Source: a virus
IMG/VR virus record: IMGVR_UViG_3300029945_000001
Span: 62,001 to 126,000 of that record
Length of the DNA stretch: 64,000 nt
Reading direction: 5' to 3' (one strand)
Under the pieces are notes generated by a model. The model had not been told where the DNA came from. It did no database searches and saw only the letters and a program-made list of their open reading frames with translations. Position numbers and translations under genes: made by a program. This document shows positions 15,816-63,966 of this stretch, piece by piece. Every line of letters begins with the position of its first letter. Positions within the stretch are counted from its first letter, which is position 1.

Positions 15816-15823
15816 TATATTAC
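15816..15823 (+). promoter_or_regulatory. TATATTAC promoter element (upstream copy)
   Basis: gatatatattacacg after the thyA terminator. It is the first of two copies 67 bases apart before the gene at 15972. Confidence 0.65.
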
Positions 15824-15882
15824 ACGTTTGTAACGATTTAATTTTGGCGCTTTGAAAAGTGTACTTCCTTTTTAAATAGATA

Positions 15883-15890
15883 TATATTAC
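15883..15890 (+). promoter_or_regulatory. TATATTAC promoter element (downstream copy)
   Basis: tagatatatattactt in the same context (tttaaatagatatatattac) as the copy at 50557. Confidence 0.75.
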
Positions 15891-15900
15891 TTAAATGAAT

Positions 15901-15950
15901 AAGTTCACTTCTTGAGTGAGCTTTGTTGACTTAAAGGTACGTTGTTACCT
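15901..15950 (+). promoter_or_regulatory. Two leader hairpins in the 5' UTR
   Basis: Hairpin 1 (15901-15923): aagttcactt, loop ctt, gagtgagctt. It has a near copy at 31585-31607 that keeps pairing with different bases. Hairpin 2 (15935-15950): aggta...tacct, also found at 50578-50593 after the same ttgactta lead-in. These lie just downstream of the promoter element. Confidence 0.6.
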
Positions 15951-15971
15951 ATAATCTTGGGAGACTGTATC

Positions 15972-16157
15972 ATGGAAAAACTCATCGCGCGTGCTAAAGA
16001 AATCGGTGTGTGGCAAATCACTATCGATATTATCATAAACAACCATATCTACAATGAAGATGAAAAGATCGCTGAGCTTACCAGAGTCATCGATATGTAT
16101 GGTGTCCTCAGTAAGTCTGATGGTCAAATTGGCTCCGAGAATATGACTTGTCACTGA
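15972..16157 (+). CDS. Small hypothetical protein
   Basis: 61 residues from ATG 15972, chosen because 'gggagactgtatc' supplies a ribosome site. An in-frame ATG at 15942 lies inside the conserved leader hairpin and is unlikely. It is a small acidic to neutral helical protein with no known motif. It is a monocistronic unit with two promoter elements, two leader hairpins and its own terminator, so probably strongly expressed early. Confidence 0.7.
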   Translation: MEKLIARAKEIGVWQITIDIIINNHIYNEDEKIAELTRVIDMYGVLSKSDGQIGSENMTCH

Positions 16158-16182
16158 GTGTATATATAATTCAGATCTTACA

Positions 16183-16214
16183 AGATAGACAGGACCGTAC
16201 GGTCCTGTCTATCT
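16183..16214. terminator. Perfect 32-bp palindromic terminator
   Basis: agatagacaggaccgt joined to its exact complement. A T-rich stretch follows downstream. Confidence 0.85.
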
Positions 16215-16269
16215 GTATCTATCATATTTTTTATTTTTTCAAAAAGTGTAGTTGAAGATTATACAAATA

Positions 16270-16277
16270 TATATTGT
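16270..16277 (+). promoter_or_regulatory. TATATTGT promoter element
   Basis: caaatatatattgttat, a one-base variant of TATATTAC. A 7-bp hairpin (gagatat, loop aaaa) follows at 16290-16307 in the leader of the next gene. Confidence 0.6.
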
Positions 16278-16332
16278 TATATTGAAGAAGAGATATAAAA
16301 ATATCTCATAACCCTTTCTTATGGTGAATATC

Positions 16333-16650
16333 ATGACCATCATGACCGACGCCCATGCCGCTAAGCAGTACAATGCTACCTTCATCAATTCGGTTATTGC
16401 CGCCAAGGCCAAGACCGACTCCTCCAAGCAGCTCGTCCGCTTCTTCTTTGACTATCTGGTTGCTGCTGTGAAAAGCAAGACCAACGATAAGTCGTACATC
16501 GAACTCCCGATCAGTATGCTGGTTGCTGATTTCAGCACGGTTTACAATGCCGATATGAAATCTGTGTTTTCGACAGTGTTCGAATCCATCCGTTTGCTGA
16601 AGATCAAGAACATCCGCACCATGGACCAGAACATTCAAATCGTCTTTTAA
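16333..16650 (+). CDS. Hypothetical protein with GC-rich codon use
   Basis: 105 residues (MTIMTDAHAAK...) from ATG 16333, chosen because 'ggtgaatatc' matches the 'ggagtgaNtatc-ATG' pattern of other early genes here; ATGs at 16321 and 16342 lack that spacing. It is alpha-helical with no known motif. Third positions are mostly C or G, unlike its AT-rich neighbours, shared with phuZ and the genes at 46756, 50618 and 59708. This suggests high expression or a different origin. Confidence 0.75.
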   Translation: MTIMTDAHAAKQYNATFINSVIAAKAKTDSSKQLVRFFFDYLVAAVKSKTNDKSYIELPISMLVADFSTVYNADMKSVFSTVFESIRLLKIKNIRTMDQNIQIVF

Positions 16651-16677
16651 GAAGGAGGGAATCTATTCCCTCCTTCT
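16650..16677. terminator. Rho-independent-type terminator
   Basis: 12-bp stem agaaggagggaa with loop tcta, then tattttttg. Confidence 0.9.
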
Positions 16678-16750
16678 TATTTTTTGTTTTTAACCTTAAA
16701 ATACTATAGACTGTAGCTTTCTTTATTTTTTAGAAAGGATCGAAGGTATT

Positions 16751-17572: not shown

Positions 17573-17577
17573 AGTTG

Positions 17578-17613
17578 ACATAGTGAGGATGGCGTCTGCC
17601 ATCCTCACTATGT
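17578..17613. terminator. Terminator hairpin
   Basis: 16-bp stem acatagtgaggatggc with loop gtct, after the protease gene. Confidence 0.85.
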
Positions 17614-17634
17614 ATTTAAATCTCATTTTAAGTA

Positions 17635-17642
17635 TATATTAC
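17635..17642 (+). promoter_or_regulatory. TATATTAC promoter element
   Basis: aagtatatattacattatt. A short hairpin (gaac, gttc) inside gta...tac follows in the leader before the gene at 17684. Confidence 0.75.
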
Positions 17643-17683
17643 ATTATTGTACACGAACGATTTTGTTCATACGGAGAAACACC

Positions 17684-18211: not shown

Positions 18212-18232
18212 TAACTGATTTGAAATATATGT

Positions 18233-18255
18233 AGGGGGTGACATCATCACCCCCT
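18233..18255. terminator. Terminator hairpin
   Basis: 9-bp stem agggggtga with a 5-nt loop (catca). Confidence 0.8.
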
Positions 18256-18347: not shown

Positions 18348-21254
18348 ATGACGGTTCTTTATAAAGAAGATTGGGTAAGGAAAAACGCATTTGTTCATTC
18401 TAATACACAAAATAAGTCATTTATTAGAGCAAGTTTATTATTAGAAAGTATGGGAATTAAGAATTGTCTATTTCCATTAACTATCTATGATAAAGACTTA
18501 ATGAATATAGATCCTCATAAATTAAATGATAATTCAGTAGAATTAAGAATGAGAATAGCTATTGAGTGTAAACGAAATGTTTGGTATTATGTAAGAGAAG
18601 TTGTTAGAGTTGGTGCACAAGGTTCAGATCCTATTCCATTTAATGCAGATCGTGGTAATATAGCCATGATTTGGGTATTTGAAAATAATTTCCATTACAT
18701 GAGTATCCAGCCCAGACAGACTGGAAAAGAACAACCATTAACAGCTAATGTTAAGACTCCAAATGGTTGGATAAAAATGGGTGATATTAAAGTTAGCGAC
18801 GATGTCATTGCCCACGATGGAACAACTGTAAAAGTAAAAGGTGTTTATCCGCAAGGAATTAAACCTGTTTACAAAATAACTTTTGAAGATGGAAGATCTA
18901 CAGAATGCGGTGAAGAACATCTTTGGAAGATCTATAATAAATATGAATTATCACAGAATCCTACAACAGAGGTCGTTTCATTAGATAGAATAAAAGATCT
19001 TATTAATGATTATCCTAATATAAAATCTTTATTAAGTATACCCCTTATTACATCAGAAATAAAAGACGATGTTAATCTTCCAGTAGATCCATATATGTTT
19101 GGTAATTTATGTAGAGGTGAAAATATTCCAGAAGATTATTTAAATGCATCAACTTCTCAGAGGTTATCACTTCTTAGAGGTATTATGACGAATTTATTTA
19201 TATCAAATAAAATAGGAGATATTTCATATTCTGTAGAAAGTTTAAAAGCTGTAAATAATATAAAATATTTAGTCCGTAGTTTAGGCGGAATATGTAGAAG
19301 TGTTGAAAGAGATGATTCTTATGATCTTTATATCAAGTTGAATAACCAACAGAATAAATTAAGTTTAGGTATTTCTAATATAGAATTTGTAGGATATAAA
19401 GAAACACAATGTATTGAAATTGATCATCCTGATCACTTATATGTAACTGATGATTTTGTCGTTACTCATAATACAACATGCGCTGTTGTGTTAACTTCAT
19501 ATGTTATTTATATTAGAGGTAAGAATTTTAACTTTGGATTATATACTAAAGACAGTGATCTTGTTCATGCAAATGTGCAGCGTTTAAAAATGGTTAAAGA
19601 TAATCTTCCTAAATATCTTATTCATAAGTCTACTAGGGATGCTGATAATAAAGAAGGATTGTCTTATAATGTATTAAATAATAACTATATTACGTTTATT
19701 GGATCTAAAGATAAACAGGCCGCCGATAACCTTGGTCGCGGTATGACCGGACCGGCATATCATTTCGATGAGCCAGCTTATACCAATAATATCAATATTA
19801 CATATCCGGTTATGATGTCTTCTACAAATGCTGCTGTCGAATCTGCTCGTAAAAATGGTATGCCGCATTCAAATATATTGACAACAACAGCCGGTCGTAC
19901 TGATACTGATCGTGGTAAATATGCATTTGAATTATTAACAGGATCATTATCATTCAGTGAAAGATTCTACGACTTAAAGAATAGAAAAGAATTGGAAACT
20001 ATTGTTAAAAATAATTCTGGTAATAATATCATCTCTGGTGTATTCTCGCATCTTATGCTTGGATTTAGTAATGAATGGTTAAATGAAAAGATCCGTAACT
20101 CTAATTCAACACAAGACGAAATTAATAAAGATTATTATAACATCTGGAGTACTGGTTCAGAACTCAGTATCTTGAAACAAGAAATATTGAAAAAGATCAA
20201 TGAAAGTATTAGAGAACCAGATCATGTCGAATTTATTCATGGTTATGTCATTAGTTGGTATATAAGTGAAGAAGAAAGAACGTCAGATCACTTTAAGAAT
20301 AAACAATTTGTTTTGGGTATGGATAGTTCAGAAAATATTGGTAGAGATTTTACAGCATTGGTCATGGTCGATATATCAACACTAGAAGTTGTAGCAACAT
20401 TTAAATGTAATGAATCCAGTACAACTAAAATTGCTATTTTTATTAGCGACTTCTTAGTCAAATATAAAAACGTCTTATTTATTCCTGAAAGAAAAAGTAC
20501 TGGTGGTTCTATTACTGATCAGGTTCTTGAAATCTTTGAGAAATATAGGATCAATCCATTTAAACGTATTTATAATAAAGTGGTACAGGAGAGACAGGCT
20601 AATGAATATAAAGATGTTAAAATAGACGATATTGATCTTTTATTAAAATATCCTGCTATTAGAAGGTTCTTAGGATTCACAACTCAAGAAAAGACTCGTG
20701 AATTCTTATATAAGAATGTTCTTAATAAAGCAGCAGAACTCAATGCAGATAAAATCATTGATAAAACATTAGCAAGTGAACTAAGTTGTTTGGCTATTGT
20801 TAATGGTAGAATAGATCACCAGAATGGTAAACACGACGATATGGTTATTGCATATTTATTGTGCTGTTTTGTTATATTCTTTGGTAAGAATTTAGATTAT
20901 TATGGAATTGACATTTCTGCACTGACTGATAATTACGATGTTAATGGTAATAAGATCGATAAAAGATATAGAGATAAACAGATTGCTTTCAGAAAAGAGA
21001 TTTTAAAATTAGAAGATTTAATGGCAAATACAGCAAGTCTCGTACTAAAAGAATATTATAGAAAACAGATAGAAAATCTCAGAACTATTATTGATGAGGA
21101 TCTTGTATTAGAACCTATTAGTGTTGCTGTTGTTAATAGTGTCGTTGAATCTTATGGTAAGCTTTATTCAGCAAATGAAATCAAGTCTAATGATAATTCT
21201 CCCGTTATGTCAGAAACACAAATGTTAAATCTTGTAAAATTACTTCCATTATAA
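18348..21254 (+). CDS. terL: Terminase large subunit interrupted by an intein
   Basis: ATP-driven DNA packaging motor and headful nuclease. The 968-residue precursor contains a 248-residue intein (codons 128-375) exactly inside the Walker A loop: 'RQTGK' before and 'TTC' after, which rejoin to RQTGKTT. Downstream are 'AYHFDEPAY' (Walker B-like), nuclease motif 'LGMDSSENIGRDFTALVMVD', 'FIPERKSTGGSI' and the C-terminal acidic pair 'KHDDMVIAYLL'. The mature protein would be 720 residues, usual for phiKZ-like terminases. The start follows 'aggagtatttat'. Function requires protein splicing, since the ATP-binding loop is broken in the precursor. Confidence 0.93.
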   Translation: MTVLYKEDWVRKNAFVHSNTQNKSFIRASLLLESMGIKNCLFPLTIYDKDLMNIDPHKLNDNSVELRMRIAIECKRNVWYYVREVVRVGAQGSDPIPFNADRGNIAMIWVFENNFHYMSIQPRQTGKEQPLTANVKTPNGWIKMGDIKVSDDVIAHDGTTVKVKGVYPQGIKPVYKITFEDGRSTECGEEHLWKIYNKYELSQNPTTEVVSLDRIKDLINDYPNIKSLLSIPLITSEIKDDVNLPVDPYMFGNLCRGENIPEDYLNASTSQRLSLLRGIMTNLFISNKIGDISYSVESLKAVNNIKYLVRSLGGICRSVERDDSYDLYIKLNNQQNKLSLGISNIEFVGYKETQCIEIDHPDHLYVTDDFVVTHNTTCAVVLTSYVIYIRGKNFNFGLYTKDSDLVHANVQRLKMVKDNLPKYLIHKSTRDADNKEGLSYNVLNNNYITFIGSKDKQAADNLGRGMTGPAYHFDEPAYTNNINITYPVMMSSTNAAVESARKNGMPHSNILTTTAGRTDTDRGKYAFELLTGSLSFSERFYDLKNRKELETIVKNNSGNNIISGVFSHLMLGFSNEWLNEKIRNSNSTQDEINKDYYNIWSTGSELSILKQEILKKINESIREPDHVEFIHGYVISWYISEEERTSDHFKNKQFVLGMDSSENIGRDFTALVMVDISTLEVVATFKCNESSTTKIAIFISDFLVKYKNVLFIPERKSTGGSITDQVLEIFEKYRINPFKRIYNKVVQERQANEYKDVKIDDIDLLLKYPAIRRFLGFTTQEKTREFLYKNVLNKAAELNADKIIDKTLASELSCLAIVNGRIDHQNGKHDDMVIAYLLCCFVIFFGKNLDYYGIDISALTDNYDVNGNKIDKRYRDKQIAFRKEILKLEDLMANTASLVLKEYYRKQIENLRTIIDEDLVLEPISVAVVNSVVESYGKLYSANEIKSNDNSPVMSETQMLNLVKLLPL
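18729..19472 (+). other. Class 3-type intein with degenerate LAGLIDADG domain
   Basis: Protein intron within terL. The first residue is not Cys or Ser (sequence EQPLTANVKTPNGW), so class 1 splicing is excluded. The class 3 W-C-T set is present: Trp193 in 'EEHLW' (block B, His191), Cys355 in 'QCIEID' (block F, the expected first nucleophile) and Thr373 in 'VVTHN' (block G). Asn375 is terminal and the +1 extein residue is Thr376. The middle holds a LAGLIDADG-like homing nuclease: 'PYMFGNLCRG' and 'LSLLRGIMTNLF'. The acidic residues expected at both motif ends are missing, so cleavage activity is probably lost while splicing is kept. Confidence 0.85.
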
Positions 21255-22801: not shown

Positions 22802-22803
22802 TA

Positions 22804-23653: not shown

Positions 23654-23703
23654 AAACAGTACTCCTTTTAGATGAAAAAATTAATTCATAAAATGTTAAG
23701 ATA

Positions 23704-23711
23704 TATATTAT
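23704..23711 (+). promoter_or_regulatory. TATATTAT promoter element
   Basis: agatatatattattaaa in the divergent gap before the plus-strand unit 23748-25073. Confidence 0.65.
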
Positions 23712-23747
23712 TAAAATAGCTTATGGATAATTCCTCGGAGAATTTGT

Positions 23748-25816: not shown

Positions 25817-25830
25817 CAATATCTTAAACA

Positions 25831-25838
25831 TATATTAC
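25831..25838 (+). promoter_or_regulatory. TATATTAC promoter element
   Basis: acatatattacttatat, 39 bases before the start at 25877. Confidence 0.75.
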
Positions 25839-25876
25839 TTATATAGGTACATCTCGAATTAGTGGAGAAAATAAAA

Positions 25877-26582: not shown

Positions 26583-26626
26583 TCTAATATTTTTTATAAA
26601 ATCTGTAACCAAATTAATTTTGAATA

Positions 26627-26634
26627 TATATTAC
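26627..26634 (+). promoter_or_regulatory. TATATTAC promoter element of the long small-gene operon
   Basis: tgaatatatattacttata. No other clear element or terminator with T-run is seen until 30823, so it may drive 12 small genes. Confidence 0.75.
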
Positions 26635-26668
26635 TTATAGGAAGCATGTCAAATACGGAGTGATTATC

Positions 26669-30852: not shown

Positions 30853-30884
30853 TTTTTTATTTGTAGTCAATTATATTTCAAATA

Positions 30885-30892
30885 TATATTAT
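30885..30892 (+). promoter_or_regulatory. TATATTAT promoter element
   Basis: caaatatatattattatt, 40 bases before the start at 30932. Confidence 0.65.
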
Positions 30893-30931
30893 TATTATGT
30901 AATGTTATAACAGAAGGTAAGGTGTACTAAA

Positions 30932-31530: not shown

Positions 31531-31565
31531 TTATTTTTTATTTGTGATTAAGCATATTTCAGATA

Positions 31566-31573
31566 TATATTAC
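31566..31573 (+). promoter_or_regulatory. TATATTAC promoter element
   Basis: cagatatatattacttaag. The hairpin at 31585-31607 follows 12 bases downstream. Confidence 0.75.
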
Positions 31574-31584
31574 TTAAGTGAAAC

Positions 31585-34371: not shown

Positions 34372-34406
34372 GATCGCTTATTATTTTTTTAACAATATCT
34401 TACGCA

Positions 34407-34414
34407 TATATTAT
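34407..34414 (+). promoter_or_regulatory. TATATTAT promoter element
   Basis: gcatatattatttgta. A small hairpin tagtt...aacta follows in the leader. Confidence 0.65.
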
Positions 34415-34461
34415 TTGTATGTAGTTCAATGTCATAACTATAACTTAAAAGGATATGGGTC

Positions 34462-34910: not shown

Positions 34911-34954
34911 AGTATTTTATTTAAAAATAAACGATAATGAAATTTATTCAAATA

Positions 34955-34962
34955 TATATTAT
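34955..34962 (+). promoter_or_regulatory. TATATTAT promoter element
   Basis: caaatatatattatttatt, 38 bases before the start at 35000. Confidence 0.7.
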
Positions 34963-34999
34963 TTATTTGACATATCTAGCATAAAAAAAGGACATCGCT

Positions 35000-35604: not shown

Positions 35605-35633
35605 CTTTATTTTTTTCATAAAGTTATAAAATA

Positions 35634-35641
35634 TATATTAC
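35634..35641 (+). promoter_or_regulatory. TATATTAC promoter element
   Basis: aaaatatatattactaata, 46 bases before the start at 35687. It probably drives 35687-39788. Confidence 0.75.
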
Positions 35642-35686
35642 TAATAAGGAATAGAATATAGATAGATAAATAAATAGGAGTATCGC

Positions 35687-37982: not shown

Positions 37983-39788
37983 ATGTCAACGAAAGATGAA
38001 AAGTTACATGTACTAACGTGCTGTTTTAACCCAGAGAATTATAAAGTTCGATATAAGTTGGATCATGACTTTACTGAATATCTTAAAGATTTCCCTAATG
38101 TTATTCATTATAAAATCGAACTGGCATTTGGCGATCAGGAGTTTGTAACAACATCTATTGATAATCCTAACCATATGCAATTACGTACAAATACTATTCT
38201 CTGGTATAAAGAAAACTTGTTAGAAATTCTACGTAAATCAAAATTACCTAAGGATTGTAAGTTTGCATGGATGGATGCTGATATTACTTTTAGTAATGTC
38301 AATATCATTAATGATACATTATCAGCACTTAATGAAAATAGCATTGTTCATATGTTTGATAAGAAGATTAATCTCGGTCCTGATGAAGAAGAACTTAATA
38401 GTAGTACTGGTAGTATTGCTAAGTATATTAACACTAGTAATTTCGGCGGCGCGTCTGGCTTAGCATGGGCAGCAAATAATGAATTTATTAATGCAATTGG
38501 TGGACTTATCGATTGGTGTATTATTGGTTCTGCCGACTGGTGTATGTCAGCAGCTATGCTAGATTGTTTATCTGAATTGGAGTATGATAAATATAATGAA
38601 TACACCAAACCACTACTTGATGCATGGCATGCTAAATTACAGGAAAATGATATTGGTGTAGGATATGTGCATGGTATATGTTATCATCATTTTCATGGTC
38701 ATAAGAAGGACCGTGGGTATGATTGGCGACATAATATTCTTATGAAACATGAGTTTGACCCTAGTAATGATTTACTTTATTTAGATAATGGACTATTGGA
38801 TATTAGTGTAAAGAAAATGGAATTACGTAATGAATTGCGCGAATACTTCCATAGTCGCCAAGAAGATAACGATGTCGAAAATATACTACATGTAGTAACT
38901 ACGGTATTCAATCCATCTGGTTATAATAGTCGATATTTTCTATATAATCAGTTTAAACGATATATGGCTAAATTTAAGAATGTTGTTCTTTATACAGTTG
39001 AATTAACTATTGGTGATCAGCATCATGTTGTAACAGATAACTATAATCCGCGTCATTTACAACTACATACTAACAATGTGTTATGGTATAAAGAAAATCT
39101 TATTAATGAAGGTATTAAGAAACTAATTCCTGCTTCAGCTAAAAATATCGCATACTTTGATGCAGATATGGCGTATTATGATGATAATTGGCCTATGTAC
39201 ATTGTTGATAAACTGAAAGAGTGTGATGTTGTACAATGCTGGTCGTCTTTGGATTTCTTAGATGAAAATTATAATGTATATAAAACACGTAATAGTTTTA
39301 TGTCAGATTATATGTCTGGTCTGCGTCCATCTTTGGATAATCCATTGGGTCCTCCTGGTCTAGCATGGGCAATGACACGCGAAGCTTATGACAAGATTGG
39401 GAGAATTTATGATAAAAATATTGTTGGTGCTAATGATAGGGATTTCTGCCATATTCTTGTTAATGAACATTACCGAATGCCAGAAACATTGAATGGATAT
39501 GATGAACTTATGAGATATAACAATATTGTACGTGCTGCTAATCTATCATACGGATATGTCGACTTGGTCGCAATGCATTATTTTCACGGACATACAAAAG
39601 ACCGTGGATATGGTGTACGAGATTCCATCTTAAATGACATTGATATATCACAAGATCTTAGTTATGATGAGAATGGGCTTCTTCAGATAGTTAACAATAA
39701 AGACCATATCTACTTAAAACTAAAGAAATACTTCGATTCTCGTAATGAAGATGTAGGACATGTGGTAAAAGACGCTGCTGCTGAATAA
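37983..39788 (+). CDS. Tandem-domain GT-A type glycosyltransferase
   Basis: 601 residues made of two similar halves (about 1-290 and 295-595). Each has 'LHV.T..FNP..Y..RY' at its start, 'NTILWYKENL' or 'NNVLWYKENL', a metal-binding DxD ('AWMDADITF' and 'AYFDADMAY') and a C-terminal 'FHGHKKDRGYDWR' or 'FHGHTKDRGYGVR'. That is an internal duplication of a phage glycosyltransferase family. It may modify phage DNA, virion or host surface glycans; the acceptor is unknown. Both DxD motifs are intact. Start after 'aaaaggactacc'. Confidence 0.82.
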   Translation: MSTKDEKLHVLTCCFNPENYKVRYKLDHDFTEYLKDFPNVIHYKIELAFGDQEFVTTSIDNPNHMQLRTNTILWYKENLLEILRKSKLPKDCKFAWMDADITFSNVNIINDTLSALNENSIVHMFDKKINLGPDEEELNSSTGSIAKYINTSNFGGASGLAWAANNEFINAIGGLIDWCIIGSADWCMSAAMLDCLSELEYDKYNEYTKPLLDAWHAKLQENDIGVGYVHGICYHHFHGHKKDRGYDWRHNILMKHEFDPSNDLLYLDNGLLDISVKKMELRNELREYFHSRQEDNDVENILHVVTTVFNPSGYNSRYFLYNQFKRYMAKFKNVVLYTVELTIGDQHHVVTDNYNPRHLQLHTNNVLWYKENLINEGIKKLIPASAKNIAYFDADMAYYDDNWPMYIVDKLKECDVVQCWSSLDFLDENYNVYKTRNSFMSDYMSGLRPSLDNPLGPPGLAWAMTREAYDKIGRIYDKNIVGANDRDFCHILVNEHYRMPETLNGYDELMRYNNIVRAANLSYGYVDLVAMHYFHGHTKDRGYGVRDSILNDIDISQDLSYDENGLLQIVNNKDHIYLKLKKYFDSRNEDVGHVVKDAAAE

Positions 39789-41226: not shown

Positions 41227-42150
41227 ATGGCTATTGTAGAGGTACCAACTAAAGATTTAATGGAACTTAGATTACATACACAAGTTATGATACATCCTGG
41301 CAATGCACTTGGTATTAAGAGTGGCGGAATAGCAGATGCTTTTGAAAAAGAATATCCTAATTCTTTTGATATGTATAAAACAGGTGGATTTGTAGAAGGT
41401 ACTTTTAGAGTAGGAACCGTTCTTGAAACTATAGAGAAAAATCATGTTATTCTTCATCTCATTACGAAAAATCATTATGGCGATGTTATGTCATATGACG
41501 ATCTTAGAGTGTGTCTTAATAACTTAAAAGACTATTTGTTAGATAATTCATTTATAGATAGATCAAAATATGTTTGTTGTATTCCTATTCTCGGGTGTTA
41601 TAATAATCAATTAGATACAGATACTGTTGTTAAAATGTATTATGATATTTTAGATGATATACCAAATATAATTCAATTATGTAGACAACCAGAAAGTTAT
41701 AATAGATTTCCTCAATATCTTGGTCTTTGTGGTCATATACGATTTAATAATAAGAAACTATTAAAAGTTGAATTATCTACTTTTATAAATAATGTATTTC
41801 CTACAGCACTTAAAGCCATAGTGATAACAGATACGAATAATGATTTTAATAGAACAGTCGAAGACGTTGTTGATGAACTTAATATAAAACTTATTAAAGT
41901 ACCAACAGATTTTAAACAATTTAAAAAGAATGGTTTTTATATTAGAAATTCTATTATGTTTAATATTTGTACAGCATTCTTATCTATTAATAAAAACAAA
42001 TTCTATTCGTCTTTATCTTACTTTTTAGAAGAGAAGGTTGTTAAGTATAATAGAAACTGTGATGATCTCAGAGTTATTAAAAAATATAATGAACCAGATC
42101 TTTTTGTTCCAGATAGAAAAGTCTTTATTAATTCAAACATATATTACTAA
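41227..42150 (+). CDS. Macro-domain protein
   Basis: 307 residues. Residues 15-150 look like a macro domain (ADP-ribose binding or hydrolysis): 'MIHPGNALGIKSGGIADAFE' (21-40), equivalent to the AVN...GGGGVAGAI region, and a late loop 'CCIPILGCYNNQLD' (117-130). The C-terminal 150 residues are unrecognised. It is translationally coupled to the peptidase gene. It could remove ADP-ribose from proteins or nucleic acids, or bind NAD-derived signals. Confidence 0.75.
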   Translation: MAIVEVPTKDLMELRLHTQVMIHPGNALGIKSGGIADAFEKEYPNSFDMYKTGGFVEGTFRVGTVLETIEKNHVILHLITKNHYGDVMSYDDLRVCLNNLKDYLLDNSFIDRSKYVCCIPILGCYNNQLDTDTVVKMYYDILDDIPNIIQLCRQPESYNRFPQYLGLCGHIRFNNKKLLKVELSTFINNVFPTALKAIVITDTNNDFNRTVEDVVDELNIKLIKVPTDFKQFKKNGFYIRNSIMFNICTAFLSINKNKFYSSLSYFLEEKVVKYNRNCDDLRVIKKYNEPDLFVPDRKVFINSNIYY

Positions 42151-42176
42151 TCTGAACAAACAAAAGGAAAGATTGT

Positions 42177-44549: not shown

Positions 44550-44576
44550 ATTTTTAATTCAATATCATTTTAAGTA

Positions 44577-44584
44577 TATATTAC
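44577..44584 (+). promoter_or_regulatory. TATATTAC promoter element of phuZ
   Basis: aagtatatattactttatt. A hairpin ttggtcaa, loop atc, ttgactaa follows at 44589-44607. Confidence 0.8.
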
Positions 44585-44636
44585 TTTATTGGTCAAATCT
44601 TGACTAATTTTGTTTCTCCTTTTGAAAGGACATCAC

Positions 44637-45689
44637 ATGTCTCTGAACGATTCTAAAGTTGCCCCCGGTATTCCGTCTTTTATTGTTTCTACCCAGCGGC
44701 GGGCACCTGAAGTCCAGACGATCATTGCTGCCAAAAATGCTCCTACGATTTCGTTTTATTTCTGTGGTGGTACTGGCATCAATACTTACAATCGTGTTTC
44801 GATGTTGCTTCCCGAATCTGCCCATATTCAGATCTTCGATACTGCCGATAAATCGAATCGCATCGACACCAATATCGATGTTACGATTCTGACGCCGGCC
44901 GCCGTCGGTTCTGGCGGCGATCGCAATGAAAACAGCCGTACTATCGCCGCTGCCTTGTCTGAAGTCGACCACGTGAATGAAGACATTGCATTTGTCGTTT
45001 TCGGCAAGTCTGGCGGTTCTGGCTCTGTGATCGGTCCGTTGTGGGCCAAAGAACTGCATCGTCGCGATCAGAGCATTCGTATTATCGGCATTGCCATCGC
45101 CGACCACGAATCCTCGCAGCAGCATTCCGACAACATGAAGGGTGCCACTAAGTCGCTGATTAGCATCTGCGAAAAGAATGGCATTTCTATTCCGCTCATC
45201 ATCTACGACAACAAGTATGGGCGGAATATCGTCGACAAGGAAGTCACCAATCTGTTCAAGATGTTTCTTCAGATTTTCACGACGCAAATCAACGAGATCG
45301 ATCCGTCTGATTTCCTGAATTTCATCGCGCACAAGTCGACGACGCCCGGCATCAAGTGCCTGAATGTGCGATGCACCAATTCAAACGAGATCGTCAGCTC
45401 TGCGATCCAGGAAGATTCTGATGTCTATGAATCCATTCTGACTATCATCGGTTCTACCGATGCAGAGTCCGAGTTCAAGCAGGTGTCGGCGACCAGGTCG
45501 TTCAGTGGCATCTTCGAATCTCCTGATTTCCCGTCTATTCGTCTGGCCATTTCCGAATTTTCTTCAAAGTTCGAAGAGCTGGCCAAGGAGACCGAAGATC
45601 ATCTGAATTCGCTTAAGCAGGCCAAAGCCGCTCAGAACAAAGCTTCGGTCTGGAAAGTTTCCGGCGACGAAGATGACCTGATCTCATAA
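44637..45689 (+). CDS. phuZ: PhuZ-like phage tubulin
   Basis: 350 residues from ATG 44637 (ribosome site gaaaggacatcac). GTP-binding cytomotive filament that centres the phage nucleus and carries capsids in nucleus-forming phages. Seen: first glycine loop 'YFCGGTGIN' (41-49), 'IQIFDTADK' (65-72), 'GSGGDRNEN' (91-99) and the tubulin signature 'VFGKSGGSGSVIGPL' (121-135), with an overall pattern matching PhuZ of 201phi2-1 as I remember it. About 35 extra residues precede the core. The C-terminus is acidic (GDEDDLIS), as in PhuZ tails that contact neighbouring subunits. GC-rich codons suggest strong expression. Confidence 0.9.
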   Translation: MSLNDSKVAPGIPSFIVSTQRRAPEVQTIIAAKNAPTISFYFCGGTGINTYNRVSMLLPESAHIQIFDTADKSNRIDTNIDVTILTPAAVGSGGDRNENSRTIAAALSEVDHVNEDIAFVVFGKSGGSGSVIGPLWAKELHRRDQSIRIIGIAIADHESSQQHSDNMKGATKSLISICEKNGISIPLIIYDNKYGRNIVDKEVTNLFKMFLQIFTTQINEIDPSDFLNFIAHKSTTPGIKCLNVRCTNSNEIVSSAIQEDSDVYESILTIIGSTDAESEFKQVSATRSFSGIFESPDFPSIRLAISEFSSKFEELAKETEDHLNSLKQAKAAQNKASVWKVSGDEDDLIS

Positions 45690-46674: not shown

Positions 46675-46706
46675 ATATTCTTATTTTTTCATTGTTAATA
46701 CAAAAA

Positions 46707-46714
46707 TATATTAC
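46707..46714 (+). promoter_or_regulatory. TATATTAC promoter element
   Basis: caaaaatatattacttaat, 42 bases before the start at 46756. Confidence 0.75.
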
Positions 46715-46755
46715 TTAATTGTATAGTTAGTAACCCATCACACAAAGAGGATACG

Positions 46756-50020: not shown

Positions 50021-50040
50021 ATATAAAAAATTTATAGATA

Positions 50041-50048
50041 TATATTAC
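50041..50048 (+). promoter_or_regulatory. TATATTAC promoter element
   Basis: tagatatatattacatgttt. A hairpin atgttt, g, aaacat (50049-50061) overlaps its downstream edge. Confidence 0.75.
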
Positions 50049-50124
50049 ATGTTTGAAACATCTAAAAAATATCTTAAAAACAATAACTACTATTGAGACA
50101 ATACCATCATGGAGGATTAAAATA

Positions 50125-50517: not shown

Positions 50518-50556
50518 ATCTTTTTTATAAAAGTGCATTTCCGTTTTAAATAGATA

Positions 50557-50564
50557 TATATTAC
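50557..50564 (+). promoter_or_regulatory. TATATTAC promoter element
   Basis: tagatatatattactttat within tttaaatagatatatattac, the same 20-base context as 15883. The aggta...tacct hairpin follows at 50578-50593. Confidence 0.8.
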
Positions 50565-50617
50565 TTTATTGACTTAAAGGTATTAATTTACCTATATCCT
50601 TTCTAGGAGATCGGATC

Positions 50618-52811: not shown

Positions 52812-53666
52812 ATGTCAGAGATGTATGAATCTACTAAAATTTCTCAAAACAAAATTGTAGAAATTATTAGAGAACTTTTTACTTATGGAGAATTGTGTGT
52901 CGATAGAGACGATAATATTCATAATCTTAGAACTCACAAAGTCTATAAATCTTTTGGATCTTCGTCGGCATATATGACATTTTCTTATAGTAAAGATGGT
53001 ATTGGAAAAATAAAGTTTCCTAAAAGATTGGTTGTCTGGATGCATTATAACGATATGAATCCTCCACCGGACAATAAAGTTATTTTAACACACAGTACTG
53101 AAAAGAATGATTTTAGATATAGATATATGTTTTTAGATAATGATTCTGGTGTAACGAAGAAAAGAGCTTTGACAGAAGAACAAGTTCTTAGATATAGAAA
53201 GGCATATAGTGAAGGAACTATGTCTCTTGGTGAAATTACTCTAGTTTTAAGTGATGTATTAAAGAAATCTGGTGTTGAATCTATGTTACGTGGTAAAACA
53301 TATAAAGATTATCAAATATTCCCTACTCCGGTTAAAGAAACAAAAATAACTCTTAATAGACTTGTTAGAGAAAGAAAAGCTACTAAGAAAATAGTACATT
53401 ATGTATCTGATGATCTTGTATGTGTTACAGATATACCATATGAAACACCATCACCAAATTCTCTTAGACAGATCATTATTTATCATATGCATTTTGTTAA
53501 GAAAGTACCACTTGTATATGTTGCAGAAGTTTTTCATTATGAATTAGATTTTACAAAAGAACAATACGAAGCATATCAAACTGAACATTATGCAAATGAT
53601 ATTAGAAAAGTTAGAGTAAAATATGGTAGAAGAAAAGATGTCTGTGAAAGATATAAATTACTTTAG
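52812..53666 (+). CDS. HNH-like / HTH-containing protein, probably degenerate homing nuclease
   Basis: 284 residues, 4 bp after the double-HTH gene. Residues 65-105 resemble a phage HNH region ('KFPKRLVVWMHYNDMNPPPD', then 'VILTHSTEKNDFRYRYMFL'), with single His and Asn in place of the full HNH set. Residues 117-165 look like a DNA-binding HTH ('EEQVLRYRKAYSEGTMSLGE', 'MLRGKTYKDY'). It could be a decayed homing endonuclease or a DNA-binding regulator. Confidence is in the HTH, less in the nuclease. Confidence 0.5.
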   Translation: MSEMYESTKISQNKIVEIIRELFTYGELCVDRDDNIHNLRTHKVYKSFGSSSAYMTFSYSKDGIGKIKFPKRLVVWMHYNDMNPPPDNKVILTHSTEKNDFRYRYMFLDNDSGVTKKRALTEEQVLRYRKAYSEGTMSLGEITLVLSDVLKKSGVESMLRGKTYKDYQIFPTPVKETKITLNRLVRERKATKKIVHYVSDDLVCVTDIPYETPSPNSLRQIIIYHMHFVKKVPLVYVAEVFHYELDFTKEQYEAYQTEHYANDIRKVRVKYGRRKDVCERYKLL

Positions 53667-56483: not shown

Positions 56484-56491
56484 TATATTAC
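56484..56491 (+). promoter_or_regulatory. TATATTAC promoter element
   Basis: accgatatattacttaaa, 30 bases before the start of the frameshifted gene. Confidence 0.7.
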
Positions 56492-56521
56492 TTAAACAAA
56501 GTAAATACATGAGGATGAAAA

Positions 56522-57034
56522 ATGTCTGATATTCAATTTGATCGTGAAAAAGTCACTGCTTTCTTAAAAAAAGTATGGTAAGTTTAATAGAATAAGTCCC
56601 ATTACAAGAAAGATAGTTGAACGAGGAAAACGAAAAGCGTGTTTCTCGAACTCACTAACATATGCTATTTTAAATTTTGAAGATGTCGGTTACATCGAAG
56701 GATTAGTAGGTAGTAATTTTGTTGAAAATCCTTTAGAGAAAGCAAGACTTCATGGTTGGAATGTATTTAAAAATATGGATGTTTTTGAGCATTGTTTTGA
56801 TAAAACTCCTATTTATTTTGATAAAACATGGACTATCGTGGGCAGTGTAGTGGACTGTTTTACTATGGTGTTGAAATATGTCCTCATTTTGCTCACATGG
56901 TTATTGGTTTACAATTCGATAAAGATAGAAGCAAACCTGGTGGTTATTCTGTTTTAACATACGAACCTTTTCTCAATGGAGAATTTAAAGAATCGGAATG
57001 GCGACCGTATGGCTATGAAATAATAGAATCATAA
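56522..57034 (+). pseudogene. Frameshifted gene of the C-x-N / H-G-W phage family
   Basis: Three frame segments together give one coherent protein of about 170 residues. Segment 1 (56522-56580) ends in 'FLKKVW' then a stop. Adding one A to the seven-A run near 56567 continues into 'YGKFNRISPITRKIVERGKR' and '..ACFSNSLTYAILNFEDVGYIEG'. Segment 2 breaks near 56826; one A added to gataaaacatgg continues into 'GQCSGLFYYGVEICPHFAHM'. The joined protein has Cys (ACFSN), His (LHGWN) and Asp (FDKTP) in the order I recall for a common phage family with C.N...Y.EG...H(A/G)W...D.T. Both repairs need one A, so sequence error and true decay are both possible. Confidence 0.65.
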
Positions 57035-59707: not shown

Positions 59708-60031
59708 ATGATTGAAAAAAATATGGACGTCACCGATATCAATGGTGCTAAAAAGAACATCAGCGATCTGAAGGTCTTTGGTAATGGCGATACCTTCCAA
59801 CTTATCTGCAAAGCTAGTTCCCAGGAACAGGGTTGGATGAAGTCGACCAAAGCTATGGAAATCGTTGGTGTTGGCTGTGTTGTCCAGGTGACAACGCAAC
59901 AGCGCAGTCCTGACGGATCGTATGCTGTGGCAGAAGCCGTGACTTTTGTTCCAGGAACAAAGATCATCGGTGATGCTATCAATGGTCGTCGGATCGTTAT
60001 TTTCAATTACAATGATACCGATATCGAATAA
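59708..60031 (+). CDS. Hypothetical beta-rich protein with GC-rich codon use
   Basis: 107 residues; start after 'atggagtcgaaaa'. Beta-rich with 'DVTDINGAKKNISDLKVFGN' and a Gly/Val core. Codons resemble phuZ and 16333, suggesting strong expression. It is the last protein gene before the tRNA and structured RNA block. No family recognised. Confidence 0.7.
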   Translation: MIEKNMDVTDINGAKKNISDLKVFGNGDTFQLICKASSQEQGWMKSTKAMEIVGVGCVVQVTTQQRSPDGSYAVAEAVTFVPGTKIIGDAINGRRIVIFNYNDTDIE

Positions 60032-60057
60032 TATTTGACTCAGTTGATATGGAAAAA

Positions 60058-60147
60058 GGATGGGTGGCCGAGTGGTTTAAGGCAACGGTCTTGAAAACCG
60101 TCGTAGGTGTGAGCTTACCGTGGGTTCGAATCCCACCCCATCCGCCA
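60058..60147 (+). tRNA. tRNA-Ser (UGA)
   Basis: 90 nt with encoded CCA. Acceptor ggatggg/cccatcc, anticodon stem acggt/accgt with loop cttgaaa (anticodon TGA), long variable arm, T-arm tggg-ttcgaat-ccca. Reads UCA and other UCN codons, suited to AT-rich codon use. Confidence 0.95.
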
Positions 60148-60178
60148 TGTTAAATAAGTTTCAAAATATTTATACATA

Positions 60179-60186
60179 TATATTAA
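60179..60186 (+). promoter_or_regulatory. TATATTAA promoter element of the RNA block
   Basis: acatatatattaatttatt, 33 bases before the first long-range stem at 60219. Confidence 0.6.
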
Positions 60187-60199
60187 TTTATTGGAACCT

Positions 60200-61640
60200 G
60201 ATCATAAAAAGTTAAACTACAGTTGAATTTCACAGTGTAGCAACCTTCTGCTCTGATCCGCACCGCCCCGCTGTGATCCGTTCTCCAGGAAAATGAGTGT
60301 CCTTTCTCATTTTAGTGTATTAGTCAACTGTGGGCTCTCGACCAAGGTGATGAAAATCATCTAAACCTGGGTATATGTTGAGAGTATAATTAAGATAGTG
60401 TTGTGACGAAGGTAACATCCGCGCCCTTCGCGTCAGGACGGCTAACCACATGCAGGTCAGTGTGCTAGCACAACACCGTAACATCTGCCACTAACATGCA
60501 ATCCGGCGACTATCAGTTTTCGAAGCATGTTTTAAAAGTCCTGATAATGCAGATGTATAGCAAATATCAAGTCGACTTGTAGAAATACAACATTCTGGTC
60601 AAGGTGCATGGAATTAACGGACCTAAACACCTTGTTGCGTCGGTTGACTTGAGAGTTCTCGTGTGGAGTTGTTGTCAATGCCGTGTCCTGGTCCTTGGAG
60701 GGGATGACGCCGTAGAAGATACCAATATGGAATACCGGAATATTCCCACATGAGCACGCTTTGTTTTCATGAGTTTTCTTTCTTTGTCCAAGTTACTGAA
60801 GATGATCTATAGCCATAGATCGAAACCTAGTTACGACGATGGTCTAACAGGCAGGACAAAGTACTGACCAGGTGTGCTGGCGCTGATATTATGCGACGTT
60901 TTATCGTTGCTGTAGATGCTGGCATATCGAAGATGTTTGTTGTGGTAAACACGCCGTTGAGATCAGCTATAGATGATCGATGATGTGGCGGTGTGCAATG
61001 AGATGATCATACGATTCCCAAGAAGGGAACTGTGATTATCTATGACTTATACACGACAGTGATCCATATGTGATCCATTGTGTGTTTGTTCTTTACATTG
61101 TTAATACCACGACGAACGTAATAACTGTGTGTTGTCTGGATAAGGGTCATGTATCCCGCAATCTGGTATCGCACTAACTCTGGTAGATATACAGTTGAGA
61201 CCGTGTCTCTAAATCTACAAGTGAGCATGTGTCTGGTGGGTTTGGGCTGAAAAAATGCCATCTGATCCACCAGACACATCTCGCGAAACCTCTTAAGTGG
61301 CGATACCGTTAGACTGAGACCCAGCTTGCTGACTAGCATTTTGTGCAGTTGGCTATGCGCGATTTATTTCGGGCATCTTCTGGCAGATATGTCGTTCTCC
61401 ACGAACCCTCCAGATCAGAGGACTTGCTCAAGATTGGTATCGTAGAGCAGGTAACTAATTTGTCCTGTAAACTATGTGATGTCGGAAAAGTCAGATCCGA
61501 TGATCTGATCAACATCATACTATCGGATGTAATGCCCCCATGGATGTTAATAGCATTTGCATTATGAGATCGGCAGATATACACATCTGATAGGAGTCGT
61601 ACCCCACACGATGAGCTCTGTGGAATCCAGAGCATCTGCA
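60200..61640 (+). ncRNA. Candidate large structured non-coding RNA region 1
   Basis: About 1.4 kb without a plausible gene and clearly less AT-rich than coding DNA. Closing stems, one after another: 60219-60226 with 60324-60331 (acagttga), 60335-60342 with 60377-60384, 60398-60405 with 60469-60476 (gtgttgtg), 60481-60488 with 60549-60556, 60567-60576 with 60643-60652 (one G-T), 60658-60666 with 60746-60754 (one G-T), 60782-60789 with 60854-60861, and a 12-bp stem 61228-61239 with 61267-61278. Several enclose further hairpins, one with a GAAA tetraloop near 60582. Placement beside tRNAs is like GOLLD or ROOL RNAs of phages, but identity cannot be claimed. Confidence 0.65.
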
Positions 61641-61641
61641 A

Positions 61642-61730
61642 GCGCGTATGGCGAAGCTGGCTGAAACGCATCAGACTTAAAATCTGACACATAAGAAACA
61701 CCGTGGGTTCGATCCCCACTACGCGCACCA
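61642..61730 (+). tRNA. tRNA-Leu (UAA)
   Basis: 89 nt with encoded CCA. Acceptor gcgcgta/tacgcgc, anticodon stem tcaga/tctga with loop cttaaaa (anticodon TAA), long variable arm, T-arm with ttcgatc loop. Reads UUA, a dominant Leu codon here. Confidence 0.95.
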
Positions 61731-61734
61731 TGAG

Positions 61735-61760
61735 GGGGTGTAAGTTATAACTTACACCCC
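61735..61760. terminator. Perfect palindrome between tRNAs
   Basis: ggggtgtaagtta joined to its complement, 5 bases after tRNA-Leu. Terminator or processing site. Confidence 0.7.
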
Positions 61761-61789
61761 TCCACCAACAATTTTCGATGACATACAAT

Positions 61790-61865
61790 GAGCACGTAAC
61801 TCAGTTGGTAGAGTACTCGACTTTTAATCGAGATGTCATGGGTTCGAGCCCCATCATGCTCACCA
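61790..61865 (+). tRNA. tRNA-Lys (UUU)
   Basis: 76 nt with CCA. Acceptor gagcacg/catgctc with one C-A mismatch, D-arm actc...gagt, anticodon stem ctcga/tcgag with loop cttttaa (TTT), T-arm atggg-ttcgagc-cccat. Confidence 0.93.
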
Positions 61866-61938
61866 TTTTTTTAAAACAAGAGACGAGCTTATCTATGTCT
61901 TCTTTTAGATATTGATAAACTCATGTTATAAAGGAAAT

Positions 61939-62014
61939 GGACGCGTAGCACAGCGGTTAGTGCCGACCGCTCATAACGGTCTGGTCGTAGGTTCGAATCC
62001 TACCGCGTCCACCA
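61939..62014 (+). tRNA. tRNA with CAU anticodon (Met, or Ile2 if modified)
   Basis: 76 nt with CCA. Acceptor ggacgcg/cgcgtcc, anticodon stem gaccg/cggtc with loop ctcataa (CAT), T-arm gtagg-ttcgaat-cctac. An elongator Met or a lysidine-type Ile tRNA cannot be told apart by sequence alone. Confidence 0.93.
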
Positions 62015-63180
62015 ACCTTTTTCCATAACGGTCTAGTTGGAAGTTCAGATCTCTCCGTACTGTAATAGGTAACCTCAGGAGATATAAGCATGACCAGATC
62101 ATGCAGGTTCGTTCTTCATAGATTGAACTTCTAAGACCACATCTGAGGTGCAATGCCTCGGCAGAGATAGCTATGTCATGTAGCATAAGTAAAAAAAACA
62201 CCAACGATGAAGTTGTACTCTCTAAAGAGTTAATGAACATGTTCAGACATCTTAGGTGAACATTTACACCTTCAAAAAGATGGTAGCAACAGTATGGGTG
62301 AGAACAAAGCCATCATGCTGGATATCTGGTAACAGTGTCCAGACCCATGTGCCCCCAAGAAACCATTGCGCTACGAGGATCTAGTGGAATTGATGCCATG
62401 CTTCGCATGCGCACAGGTTATAATAACCACATTGTCCTTATCTGAACATTTTTATTGACTCTCTCGGAGAAAACCCTCGTTTGTTGAAATGTTTATCACA
62501 AAGCTGTTATGACTCAATGACATAACAGTTTACCGCTTAAGGTTAACCATCTATCCCTCATCACCGTAGTACGCCTAGGAGTTGTCCTATGTGGTCCAAA
62601 ATGATGAATGATGAGCGGTGGCGAACAGCCGGGTTTGGAGACTGTGTGATATGGCCTCCTAACTGGGCTCTGTTGTTCTTTCATGCATTGACACCCAGTG
62701 TATCGAGAGAATATCGGTCCGTCTCGAACGGACAACTTTCCTGCTTTAGATCGTATGTTTTGGCATATGTCTTAATCCGCACCGGTCCGGCCGATGTATG
62801 GATATGGGCGTAACTCGTCAACGATCTGCTAACAGGCTGAAGAACATGGAAGGTATACCAGGACTACGATCGCCGGCTCTAACTTAAGTCATCTGGAGTC
62901 ACTCAGGGACTATCCTGCGGTGAACATACGATGAGAGTTATCTTGGGATCATTTCCGTATACACACAACTGCTGTGTCCATAAGTGTTCTGTGTCTGAAA
63001 GCAAGGCATGAAGTGATTTTGTCACCGCCAACCCGCTATGTGGGAGATCCGTGAAAAGGTCTCCCACTACGGTTTCTTTAGTGTAGATTAAGGTGAACAC
63101 CGAACACGGAATGGGCCTCCGCGCAACACAATCCCCCGATGTTGCTATGTTCGGTGTTCTCCTTAGTTTATACATATTAA
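62015..63180 (+). ncRNA. Candidate large structured non-coding RNA region 2
   Basis: About 1.1 kb without genes. It opens with a partial echo of the preceding tRNA (cataacggtct at 62026). An outer pairing ggtct...gaagttca with tgaacttc...agacc closes about 62031-62140. Further hairpins: ctgttatg with cataacag (62500 region), gtccgt with acggac (62720 region), gtgggaga with tctcccac (63040-63070). It ends with a 12-bp stem 63095-63106 with 63148-63159 (gaacaccgaaca), extendable by taagg/cctta. Dense local pairing and balanced base composition in an AT-rich genome support RNA function. Confidence 0.6.
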
Positions 63181-63222
63181 ATTCTTCAGGCAGCTGCTTA
63201 TTTTTTATTTCAAAGATAAATA

Positions 63223-63230
63223 TATATTAA
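63223..63230 (+). promoter_or_regulatory. TATATTAA promoter element
   Basis: gataaatatatattaatac, 13 bases before the tRNA-like gene at 63243. Confidence 0.6.
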
Positions 63231-63242
63231 TACATTGAATTC

Positions 63243-63322
63243 GCCGCAGTATCTCCTTGGCCTTCTAAGCTATTGAAAGAGTAACTGGACACATGGGGGT
63301 TCGAATCCCTCCTGCGGCGCCA
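63243..63322 (+). tRNA. Aberrant tRNA-like gene, probably Arg (UCU)
   Basis: 80 nt with CCA. Acceptor gccgcag/ctgcggc is perfect and the T-arm ggggg-ttcgaat-ccctc is good. An anticodon-like loop cttctaa (TCT) sits on a 4-bp stem (tggc/gcta). Only 7 bases remain where the D-arm should be and about 21 lie between anticodon and T-arms. Either a D-armless tRNA or a rearranged pseudogene. Confidence 0.5.
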
Positions 63323-63389
63323 ATCATTTAAAATATTCTAATCCGGGATCGTCGGTCTGAGTCTGACCTGGAGACCACTAAGATACCAT

Positions 63390-63438
63390 ATATCTTCTAA
63401 GCGGCAGGTCGTAGGTTCGAGTCCTACTGGGATCGCTA
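63390..63438 (+). pseudogene. 3' half of a tRNA-Arg (UCU)-like gene
   Basis: Has anticodon loop cttctaa, variable bases, T-arm gtagg-ttcgagt-cctac and 3' acceptor tgggatcg, but ends cta instead of cca and no complementary 5' acceptor is seen upstream. A direct repeat gggatcg at 63345 and 63429 flanks it. Confidence 0.6.
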
Positions 63439-63872
63439 AGCTGCCATACATCTTCTTCAGTTTCGGGTCCTTCTGAGTAAGGCATTTGAGTATGCACACC
63501 GATCCATGAAAGTGGGGACAGTGTATCGGTTCTTTTAAAAGTTTTGGCTCCGTTAACTGAGTCTGGACTGCTCACCGGCATGTATGTGTCAGTGTTGTCG
63601 GAAAAGCATACAAATGCATTAATGGTTAGAGGGTGTCCATCTTCGGATCGGCATTTTGGCCATAGTCGCTAGAAATCAGTGAAACGGGCTGGTCTCGGGA
63701 TAAATTGTAAGTCTGACGACCGAGATAAGATTAATGACTTACCAAAGTCCTGGTGTGTTAAAAAACTTATGGTGATGTAACCAGGGATGCGAACTATGTT
63801 TGCCATCGGACGCCAAGCGATCGATGAAACCATTCTAAATTCCACTTAACTTTTAGGTCGATGTTATCGGGC
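63439..63872 (+). ncRNA. Candidate structured non-coding region 3
   Basis: About 430 bases with no plausible gene, base composition like regions 1 and 2. It includes short inverted pairs such as ctcggga/tctcggt-type matches around 63695-63725 but I could not build a full fold by eye. It ends at terminator 63873-63909. Confidence 0.4.
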
Positions 63873-63909
63873 TGTCACATGCATGGACGTAATGTCCATG
63901 TATGTGACA
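63873..63909. terminator. Rho-independent-type terminator
   Basis: 16-bp stem tgtcacatgcatggac (one wobble) with a 5-nt loop, then gttcatttattttttaa. It ends the RNA block. Confidence 0.85.
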
Positions 63910-63958
63910 AGTTCATTTATTTTTTAATACATTTTGAGTTTTATACAAAAAATAAATA

Positions 63959-63966
63959 TATATTAC
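63959..63966 (+). promoter_or_regulatory. TATATTAC promoter element
   Basis: aataaatatatattacttat, 26 bases before the start codon at 63993. Confidence 0.75.

Follow-up and report, generated by a model that had tools for sequence, protein, structure and literature searches.

Which genes of a large phage are transcribed first, and by which enzyme? This question is raised by a short element that recurs in the window, i.e., the whole stretch of 64,000 nucleotides (nt) analysed here, which corresponds to bases 62001-126000 of a 208,374-base phage record (IMGVR_UViG_3300029945_000001). The original prediction, made from the letters alone, had counted at least 19 copies of this element around the core TATATTAC, and had proposed that they define an early class of genes, to which the tubulin gene phuZ and a block of non-coding RNA would belong. 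We conclude that these sites very probably serve as early promoters in a phiKZ-like phage and that their reader is a multisubunit RNA polymerase (RNAP) which travels in the virion and enters the cell with the DNA. Transcription from them would be early and resistant to rifampicin.

We called 210 genes (168 on the + strand, 42 on the - strand) with a home-made hexamer model applied to overlapping stretches of the record, and submitted the 120 nt upstream of each of them to an expectation-maximization (EM) motif search. This kind of search, which had been suggested along with the prediction, recovers the motif in the form TTTYARATATATATTAY-N6-G. Seeded with TATATTAC, EM gave TTTtAAATATATATTACTTAATTGAA in about 37 genes; the seeds TATAAT and TTATATATTA led to the same motif with an offset of 1-2 nt, TTGACA and AAATAA to looser versions of it, and GGAGGTTTA to a different, weak motif. 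In the window, 21 copies of the bare word TATATTAC (18 on the + strand, 3 on the - strand) stand against 8.4 expected, and none of 100 shuffles contained 21 copies or more. Over the whole record the word is found 44 times in forward and 9 times in reverse orientation, the reversed-pattern control giving 9 and 10. The bias is much stronger for the full matrix: 39 sites score above 16 on the + strand of the record and none on the - strand, while shuffled sequences contain on average 0.77 such sites on both strands together and at most 3 (30 shuffles). Twenty of the 39 fall in the window, in keeping with the copy number announced, and none in its first 15.8 kb. Most of them (31/39) lead directly into a called gene at a distance of 32-89 nt; the motif does stand close before genes, over a somewhat wider range than the predicted 25-65 bases. 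The other eight are tandem or upstream copies, intragenic sites, one site located 18 nt from a frame and two sites in the RNA block. A G occupies the predicted start position in 36 of the 39 sites, and the last base of the core is C (27/39) or T (9/39) in 36 of them, i.e., the core reads TATATTAC or TATATTAT. The extended motif is real, all its strong copies lie on one strand and most are found just before genes.

The matrix was trained on this phage's own genome, hence we also applied outside models. In phage AR9, the early consensus AAATATATATTAT-(6N)-G goes with 41 transcription starts mapped by differential RNA sequencing (PMC5312081). With R and Y allowed at two positions, a change made after this phage's matrix was known, the AR9 consensus matches 22 sites forward and none reverse, and none in both controls. 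A matrix built only from 33 phiKZ TATATTAC contexts yields, above a score of 12, 34 forward and 2 reverse sites and recovers 24 of the 39. When the core is blanked in this phiKZ matrix, the flanks of our sites score +2.6 on average (n=38) versus -9.4 for 148 other TATATTA words (p=9e-18), a measure of flank likeness and no independent discovery, since the 38 sites had been chosen by this phage's own matrix. Conversely, scanning phiKZ with the matrix of the present phage at >16 gives 8 forward and 0 reverse sites; two of these, 45568 and 57984, precede the nuclear-shell gene gp54 by 80 nt and gp68 by 41 nt, respectively.

Which polymerases does this phage encode, and which genes carry the motif? 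Compared by phmmer with the phiKZ reading frames, 45 of the 210 proteins have a match. The check for virion RNAP subunits elsewhere in the genome, suggested along with the prediction, is positive: homologues of phiKZ gp178 (partial), gp180, gp149 and gp80 are all present outside the window. The gp178 homologue is an open frame of 1,198 amino acids (aa) cut by the contig start (1.8e-64), and the gp180 homologue contains DADYDGD, DxDGD being the signature of the catalytic subunit (PMC7598289). The search covered these four subunits of an enzyme that also comprises a small fifth one (SPN3US gp244). The non-virion RNAP is represented by homologues of gp55, gp68, gp71, gp74 and gp123, also outside the window. 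We assigned genes to the motif by an operon rule, which goes back along + strand genes separated by gaps of less than 100 nt to a gene with a site, terminators being ignored. All five non-virion RNAP genes are motif-led, gp55, gp68 and gp71 directly and gp74 and gp123 as second genes, although they are partly clustered and thus not fully independent. On the contrary, none of the four virion RNAP genes is: gp178 and gp180 lie on the - strand, which holds no site above 16, and gp80 and gp149 are without a site. More generally, taking structural, protease, terminase and virion RNAP genes as the virion-type class, the operon rule places the motif before 1 of 19 virion-type genes versus 11 of 26 other phiKZ homologues (p=0.007).

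The genes predicted to lack the motif behave largely as proposed. The terminase and ribonucleotide reductase (RNR) genes have none directly upstream, a hairpin separating each of them from the preceding motif-led gene. The virion-type helicase gene also has a hairpin upstream; at 56484, ahead of this gene, a TATATTAC with a score of no more than 9 precedes a short, broken-looking frame. Likewise, none of the 19 virion-type genes has a site directly upstream. The phuZ gene is itself motif-led, with a site 60 nt before its ATG, and together with the polymerase genes it supports an early class predictable from sequence. Among the motif-led genes is also a GyrB-like gene (Toprim, 1.8e-10), preceded by a weaker site (17.1). 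Beside the helicase, the region 56484-57034 shows a hairpin, the low-scoring TATATTAC, then the short frame and remnants of a longer one; it is perhaps an early gene decaying together with its promoter.

The sites of the window, with the position of the first T of the core in brackets, and phuZ are as follows.

15811..15830 (core 15816), + strand: motif, first of a tandem pair before a 61-aa gene at 15972; score 21.2, exact AR9-type consensus
15878..15897 (core 15883), + strand: motif, second of the tandem pair; score 27.9, AR9-type consensus
16265..16284 (core 16270), + strand: motif with the deviant core TATATTGT, before gene 16333; score 23.3
17630..17649 (core 17635), + strand: motif before gene 17684; score 23.3
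23699..23718 (core 23704), + strand: motif before gene 23748; score 19.7
25826..25845 (core 25831), + strand: motif before gene 25877; score 19.3
26622..26641 (core 26627), + strand: motif before gene 26669; score 23.7
30880..30899 (core 30885), + strand: motif before gene 30932; score 25.1, AR9-type consensus
31561..31580 (core 31566), + strand: motif before gene 31644; top score, 29.7, AR9-type consensus
34402..34421 (core 34407), + strand: motif before gene 34462; score 16.5
34950..34969 (core 34955), + strand: motif before gene 35000; score 28.2, AR9-type consensus
35629..35648 (core 35634), + strand: motif before gene 35687; score 24.1, AR9-type consensus
42135..42154 (core 42140), + strand: motif before AAA ATPase gene 42177 (Pfam AAA, 8.6e-08); score 26.3
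44572..44591 (core 44577), + strand: motif before phuZ; score 25.0
44637..45689, + strand: phuZ (phage tubulin), 350 aa; PHROG 4733 tubulin PhuZ, 1.3e-29; phiKZ gp39, 2e-10
46702..46721 (core 46707), + strand: motif before 93-aa gene 46756, a hairpin lying between that gene and RNR; score 24.4
50036..50055 (core 50041), + strand: motif before gene 50125; score 26.0, AR9-type consensus
50552..50571 (core 50557), + strand: motif before gene 50618; score 27.4, AR9-type consensus
60174..60193 (core 60179), + strand: motif where the non-coding RNA block begins; core TATATTAA, its last base deviant; score 23.7
63218..63237 (core 63223), + strand: motif with its predicted start 6 nt before a borderline transfer RNA (tRNA) at 63243-63319 (Rfam tRNA, 29.2 bits, cut-off 29), core TATATTAA (deviant last base); score 17.0
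63954..63973 (core 63959), + strand: motif bordering the RNA block downstream, ahead of gene 63993; score 24.4

The tandem motifs at 15811-15897 are 67 nt apart, and a second pair, 296 nt apart, is found at 53236-53551 of the record; each pair stands before one gene or operon. When 16 of the 17 motif-led genes of the window were scanned against Pfam, 12 had no match at 0.01. The sites thus provide, for a deep lineage of phages, a list of early genes predicted from sequence; most of the proteins on it are unknown and are candidates for takeover functions.

How could these sites work? The injected enzyme would fire some 39 of them at once, transcription probably starting at the G that follows the first T of the core by 14 nt. 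Among the products would be the second, non-virion polymerase, which would then read the other genes, those for the next virion polymerase included. Several observations weigh against this scheme, in which the starts and the early class are predicted from sequence. Five of the 39 sites are intragenic; two of the called genes concerned, with 60 and 37 aa, are doubtful as frames. When the matrix was trained outside the window only, the motif became less strict, with about 62 sites expected in 132 sequences; applied to the held-out window, it gave 9 forward and 0 reverse sites above 16, 14 and 0 above 14, and 25 and 2 above 12, and 7 of those 25 are inside genes, in a window that is 79% gene-covered. 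Counting only sites directly upstream, the contrast between virion-type genes (0/19) and other homologues (5/26) reaches only p=0.06, and under the gap rule a baseplate gene, the gp164 homologue, belongs to a motif operon. A bare TATATTAC with a score of no more than 9 is also present at record position 51005, about 106 nt before the gp149 homologue and inside the preceding gene.

The sites might, alternatively, be host-type sigma-70 promoters with the core as their -10 element, early only since the host enzyme is already present. The core does resemble a -10 box, and phiRSL2 and phiRSF1, relatives of phiKZ that have the same RNAP sets, need the host RNAP and are rifampicin-sensitive (PMC5468394), which also speaks against the virion enzyme as the reader here. 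A hexamer matching TTGACA at 5 or 6 of its 6 positions stands at the right spacing in 4 of the 39 sites versus 5.2% of shuffles, and the mean best -35 match is in slight excess (3.77 versus 3.50 in shuffles). However, the conserved flank (TTTYARATA) adjoins the core instead of lying 17 nt upstream, EM returns no -35 element even when seeded with TTGACA, and the layout is that of AR9 and phiKZ, whose early transcription is described as host-independent (PMC7598289, PMC5312081). We therefore set the sigma-70 reading aside as improbable. Even less likely is that some other phage factor binds the motif, as an operator or otherwise, or that the motif marks 5' ends for RNA processing. Such roles could indeed be filled by a conserved stretch that stands 32-89 nt ahead of start codons and often follows a hairpin; yet the same sequence with the same spacing to the start G has been mapped as a promoter in AR9 (PMC5312081), and according to a review, predicted motifs of this kind proved to be early promoters wherever transcripts were profiled (PMC7598289). 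Least credible of all is that a genome with 70% A+T contains these copies by chance. Single bare matches do mean little when 8.4 are expected in the window, and individual ones may still be due to chance, but for the extended motif as a class chance is rejected by the strand asymmetry, 39:0 with 0.77 expected, and 22:0 for the full consensus. Promoters of the virion RNAP remain by far the best account of the sites.

The original prediction had also placed the motif nearly always right after a palindromic terminator. A hairpin followed by a T-run is found within 120 nt upstream of 15 of the 20 sites in the window and of 27 of the 39 genome-wide, i.e., in about three cases out of four in the window, not far above gap-matched controls. 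Indeed, the same search is positive for 37 of 136 + strand genes without motif, for 20 of the 41 of these that follow a gap of at least 80 nt, and for 45 of 300 random positions. A stricter hairpin finder gave 21 of the 39 sites versus 14/136, 11/35 and 16/400 in controls. The enrichment over gap-matched genes is modest, and the terminator-then-motif layout fits transcription units that begin where the previous one ends.

While phuZ fits the early class, the membership of the RNA block appears weaker. Two of its three sites, 60179 and 63223, carry the core TATATTAA, and the third, 63959, is canonical but leads into a gene; in AR9, a site off consensus at one position was reported to be inactive (PMC5312081). 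We rate the odds that the virion RNAP transcribes the non-coding part of this region as about even; from 60179 and 63223, it might produce both non-coding and tRNA-like RNAs early. The block itself (60148-63950) is 3.8 kb long with about 43% G+C in a 30% G+C genome. It contains tRNA-Leu, tRNA-Lys and tRNA-Met and two borderline tRNA-like matches (63243-63319 and 63382-63435); apart from tRNAs it has no long frames, and the only Rfam matches above cut-off are tRNAs. Folding of 18 segments of 150 nt compared with shuffles gave z=-2.66 for 60793-60942 and z=-3.37 for 60943-61092, the other segments ranging from +0.41 to -1.84. A tRNA-Ser (60058-60147) lies upstream of site 60179. A 107-aa protein (59708-60031) has 292 relatives, of which 80 were kept; by blastn, the only parts common to the block and their loci are that gene and a 70-base stretch over tRNA-Met. 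In a distant DNA search with the block, the phage records listed, 20 out of 50, all match at tRNAs.

Other genes were noticed on the way. The terminase large subunit (18348-21254) has 968 aa, with an intein-like insert seen by eye at its ATP-binding loop, and no Pfam match at 0.001; its counterparts have about 980 aa in Eowyn and about 717 in phiKZ. A 601-aa protein (37983-39788), also without a Pfam match at 0.001, seems by eye to consist of two tandem glycosyltransferase-like halves, with the stretches GLAWA and HFHGH occurring twice each, and 40096-41223 encodes a protein of the M29 metallopeptidase family (PF02073, 3.4e-27). Outside the window, on the - strand between the virion RNAP genes (record 5377-7216), a radical S-adenosylmethionine enzyme (PF04055, 1.8e-13) adjoins a 175-aa protein with a Cys/Asn-rich tail of NCNCNC repeats; the two have the look of a modifying enzyme and the peptide it acts on, a combination that is unusual in a phage.

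Where does this phage stand among its relatives? Of the three features of Chimalliviridae, the nucleus-forming phages, that were looked for, two multisubunit RNAPs and PhuZ are encoded. PhuZ is accessory in this family and does not occur in all members. Chimallin was not matched by phmmer against phiKZ frames, by an 11-sequence profile or by hhalign over the 210 proteins, in a contig that is cut and with a phiKZ query that misses chimallin in 2 of 12 records, Aphrodite1 being one. A motif-led protein of 528 aa (record 182189-183775) stands just before the gp55 homologue, at the place of the chimallin gene gp54 in phiKZ; it has matches neither in PHROG nor, by sequence, in PDB, no sequence method ties it to chimallin, and its single-sequence model is poor (mean predicted local distance difference test score 36).

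Relatives are distant. Scans of viral contigs with PhuZ, gp55 and the 528-aa protein returned other contigs with a 100% identical protein, plus one 25% relative for gp55, and gp74 gave 2 identical and 12 distant loci (21-27%); one scan of genome contigs with gp55 found no relative. At the DNA level, four of the contigs that stem from this same phage show 99.99-100% identity and thus contain no footprint information. With such contigs excluded, the best identities seen for terminase, gp74, gp180 and PhuZ are 21-37%. The gp180 homologue is 32-37% identical to those of 11 phiKZ-type records, the best being record G006 (37%), versus 24-25% for AR9 and phiR1-37. In a gp180 tree with phiR1-37 as outgroup, the phage is placed near the base of the phiKZ-like group beside record G009 (233 kb), with a weak support of 0.63. 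A thymidylate-synthase-family gene is present. AR9 DNA contains uracil (PMC7598289), and by its sequence the virion RNAP falls outside the uracil-DNA clade of AR9 and phiR1-37.

The control system is a known one; what is added here is a deep new member, its gene list and the near identity to the AR9 promoter. In such a system, a conserved AT-rich element of about 10 nt, centred near -10 with the start base 6 nt further on, precedes many presumed early operons, and early transcription is expected to resist rifampicin and to need no new protein; by sequence, the present sites have this layout. In phiKZ, the early core is listed as TATATTAC (Table 2 of PMC7058600), as the original prediction had stated, and the flanks are alike too: both phages have the AT-rich upstream part with a TTTRAR-like stretch and TG after the core. 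However, phiKZ mostly has other bases just before the core, and the strict ARATA form is found 3 times. The predicted early promoters of 201phi2-1, OBP, EL and N1M2 in the same table consist of an AT tract, TTTYARR or TTTRARR and a TATATTAC- or ATATTAT-type core, with TG after it, as here, where the sequence is given past the core (PMC7058600). Anchored contexts of phiKZ and of records G001 and G007 show the same succession of AT-rich part, TTTRAR-like stretch, core, and TG or GTG; those of G001 and G007 end in GTG, with G or C between flank and core, where the present phage has ARATA and mostly TTG. Eowyn contexts fit the TTTRAR part poorly. A strand skew of TATATTAC of at least 3.5:1 is found in 9 of 13 phiKZ-type records (phiKZ, Eowyn, Aphrodite1 with only 9 copies, and six IMG/VR records), one of the nine being nearly phiKZ (chimallin 99% identical) and so not independent; the other four show no skew or have too few copies.

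The closest likeness is with AR9: the same 13-base element, 6-base gap and G recur position for position, and the relaxed pattern has 23 matches in AR9 (16 + 7 on the two strands) for 22 here. This AR9-type pattern is otherwise present in G009 (10 + 0), phiKZ (3 + 0) and phiR1-37 (2 + 0), and was found 0 times in the other nine records examined. Unlike AR9, C is commoner than T as the last core base in the present phage, and its strong sites are all on the + strand, whereas those of AR9 are on both. It could be, and we offer this as a tentative and rather doubtful idea, that the virion-RNAP promoter in the ancestor of the RNAP-encoding jumbo phages was ARATATATATTAY-N6-G, a form near-exact in AR9, this phage and G009 and drifted or diverged in the others. 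The recognition code would then have been kept while identity between the polymerases dropped to about 24%, two near-basal lineages preserving it. The promoter is nearly the same in AR9, phiKZ and the present phage while the enzymes differ widely, the gp180-type subunit of AR9 being only 24% identical to ours over the matched part. Hence, residues conserved across these virion polymerases could indicate the surface by which an RNAP without sigma factor recognizes its promoters.

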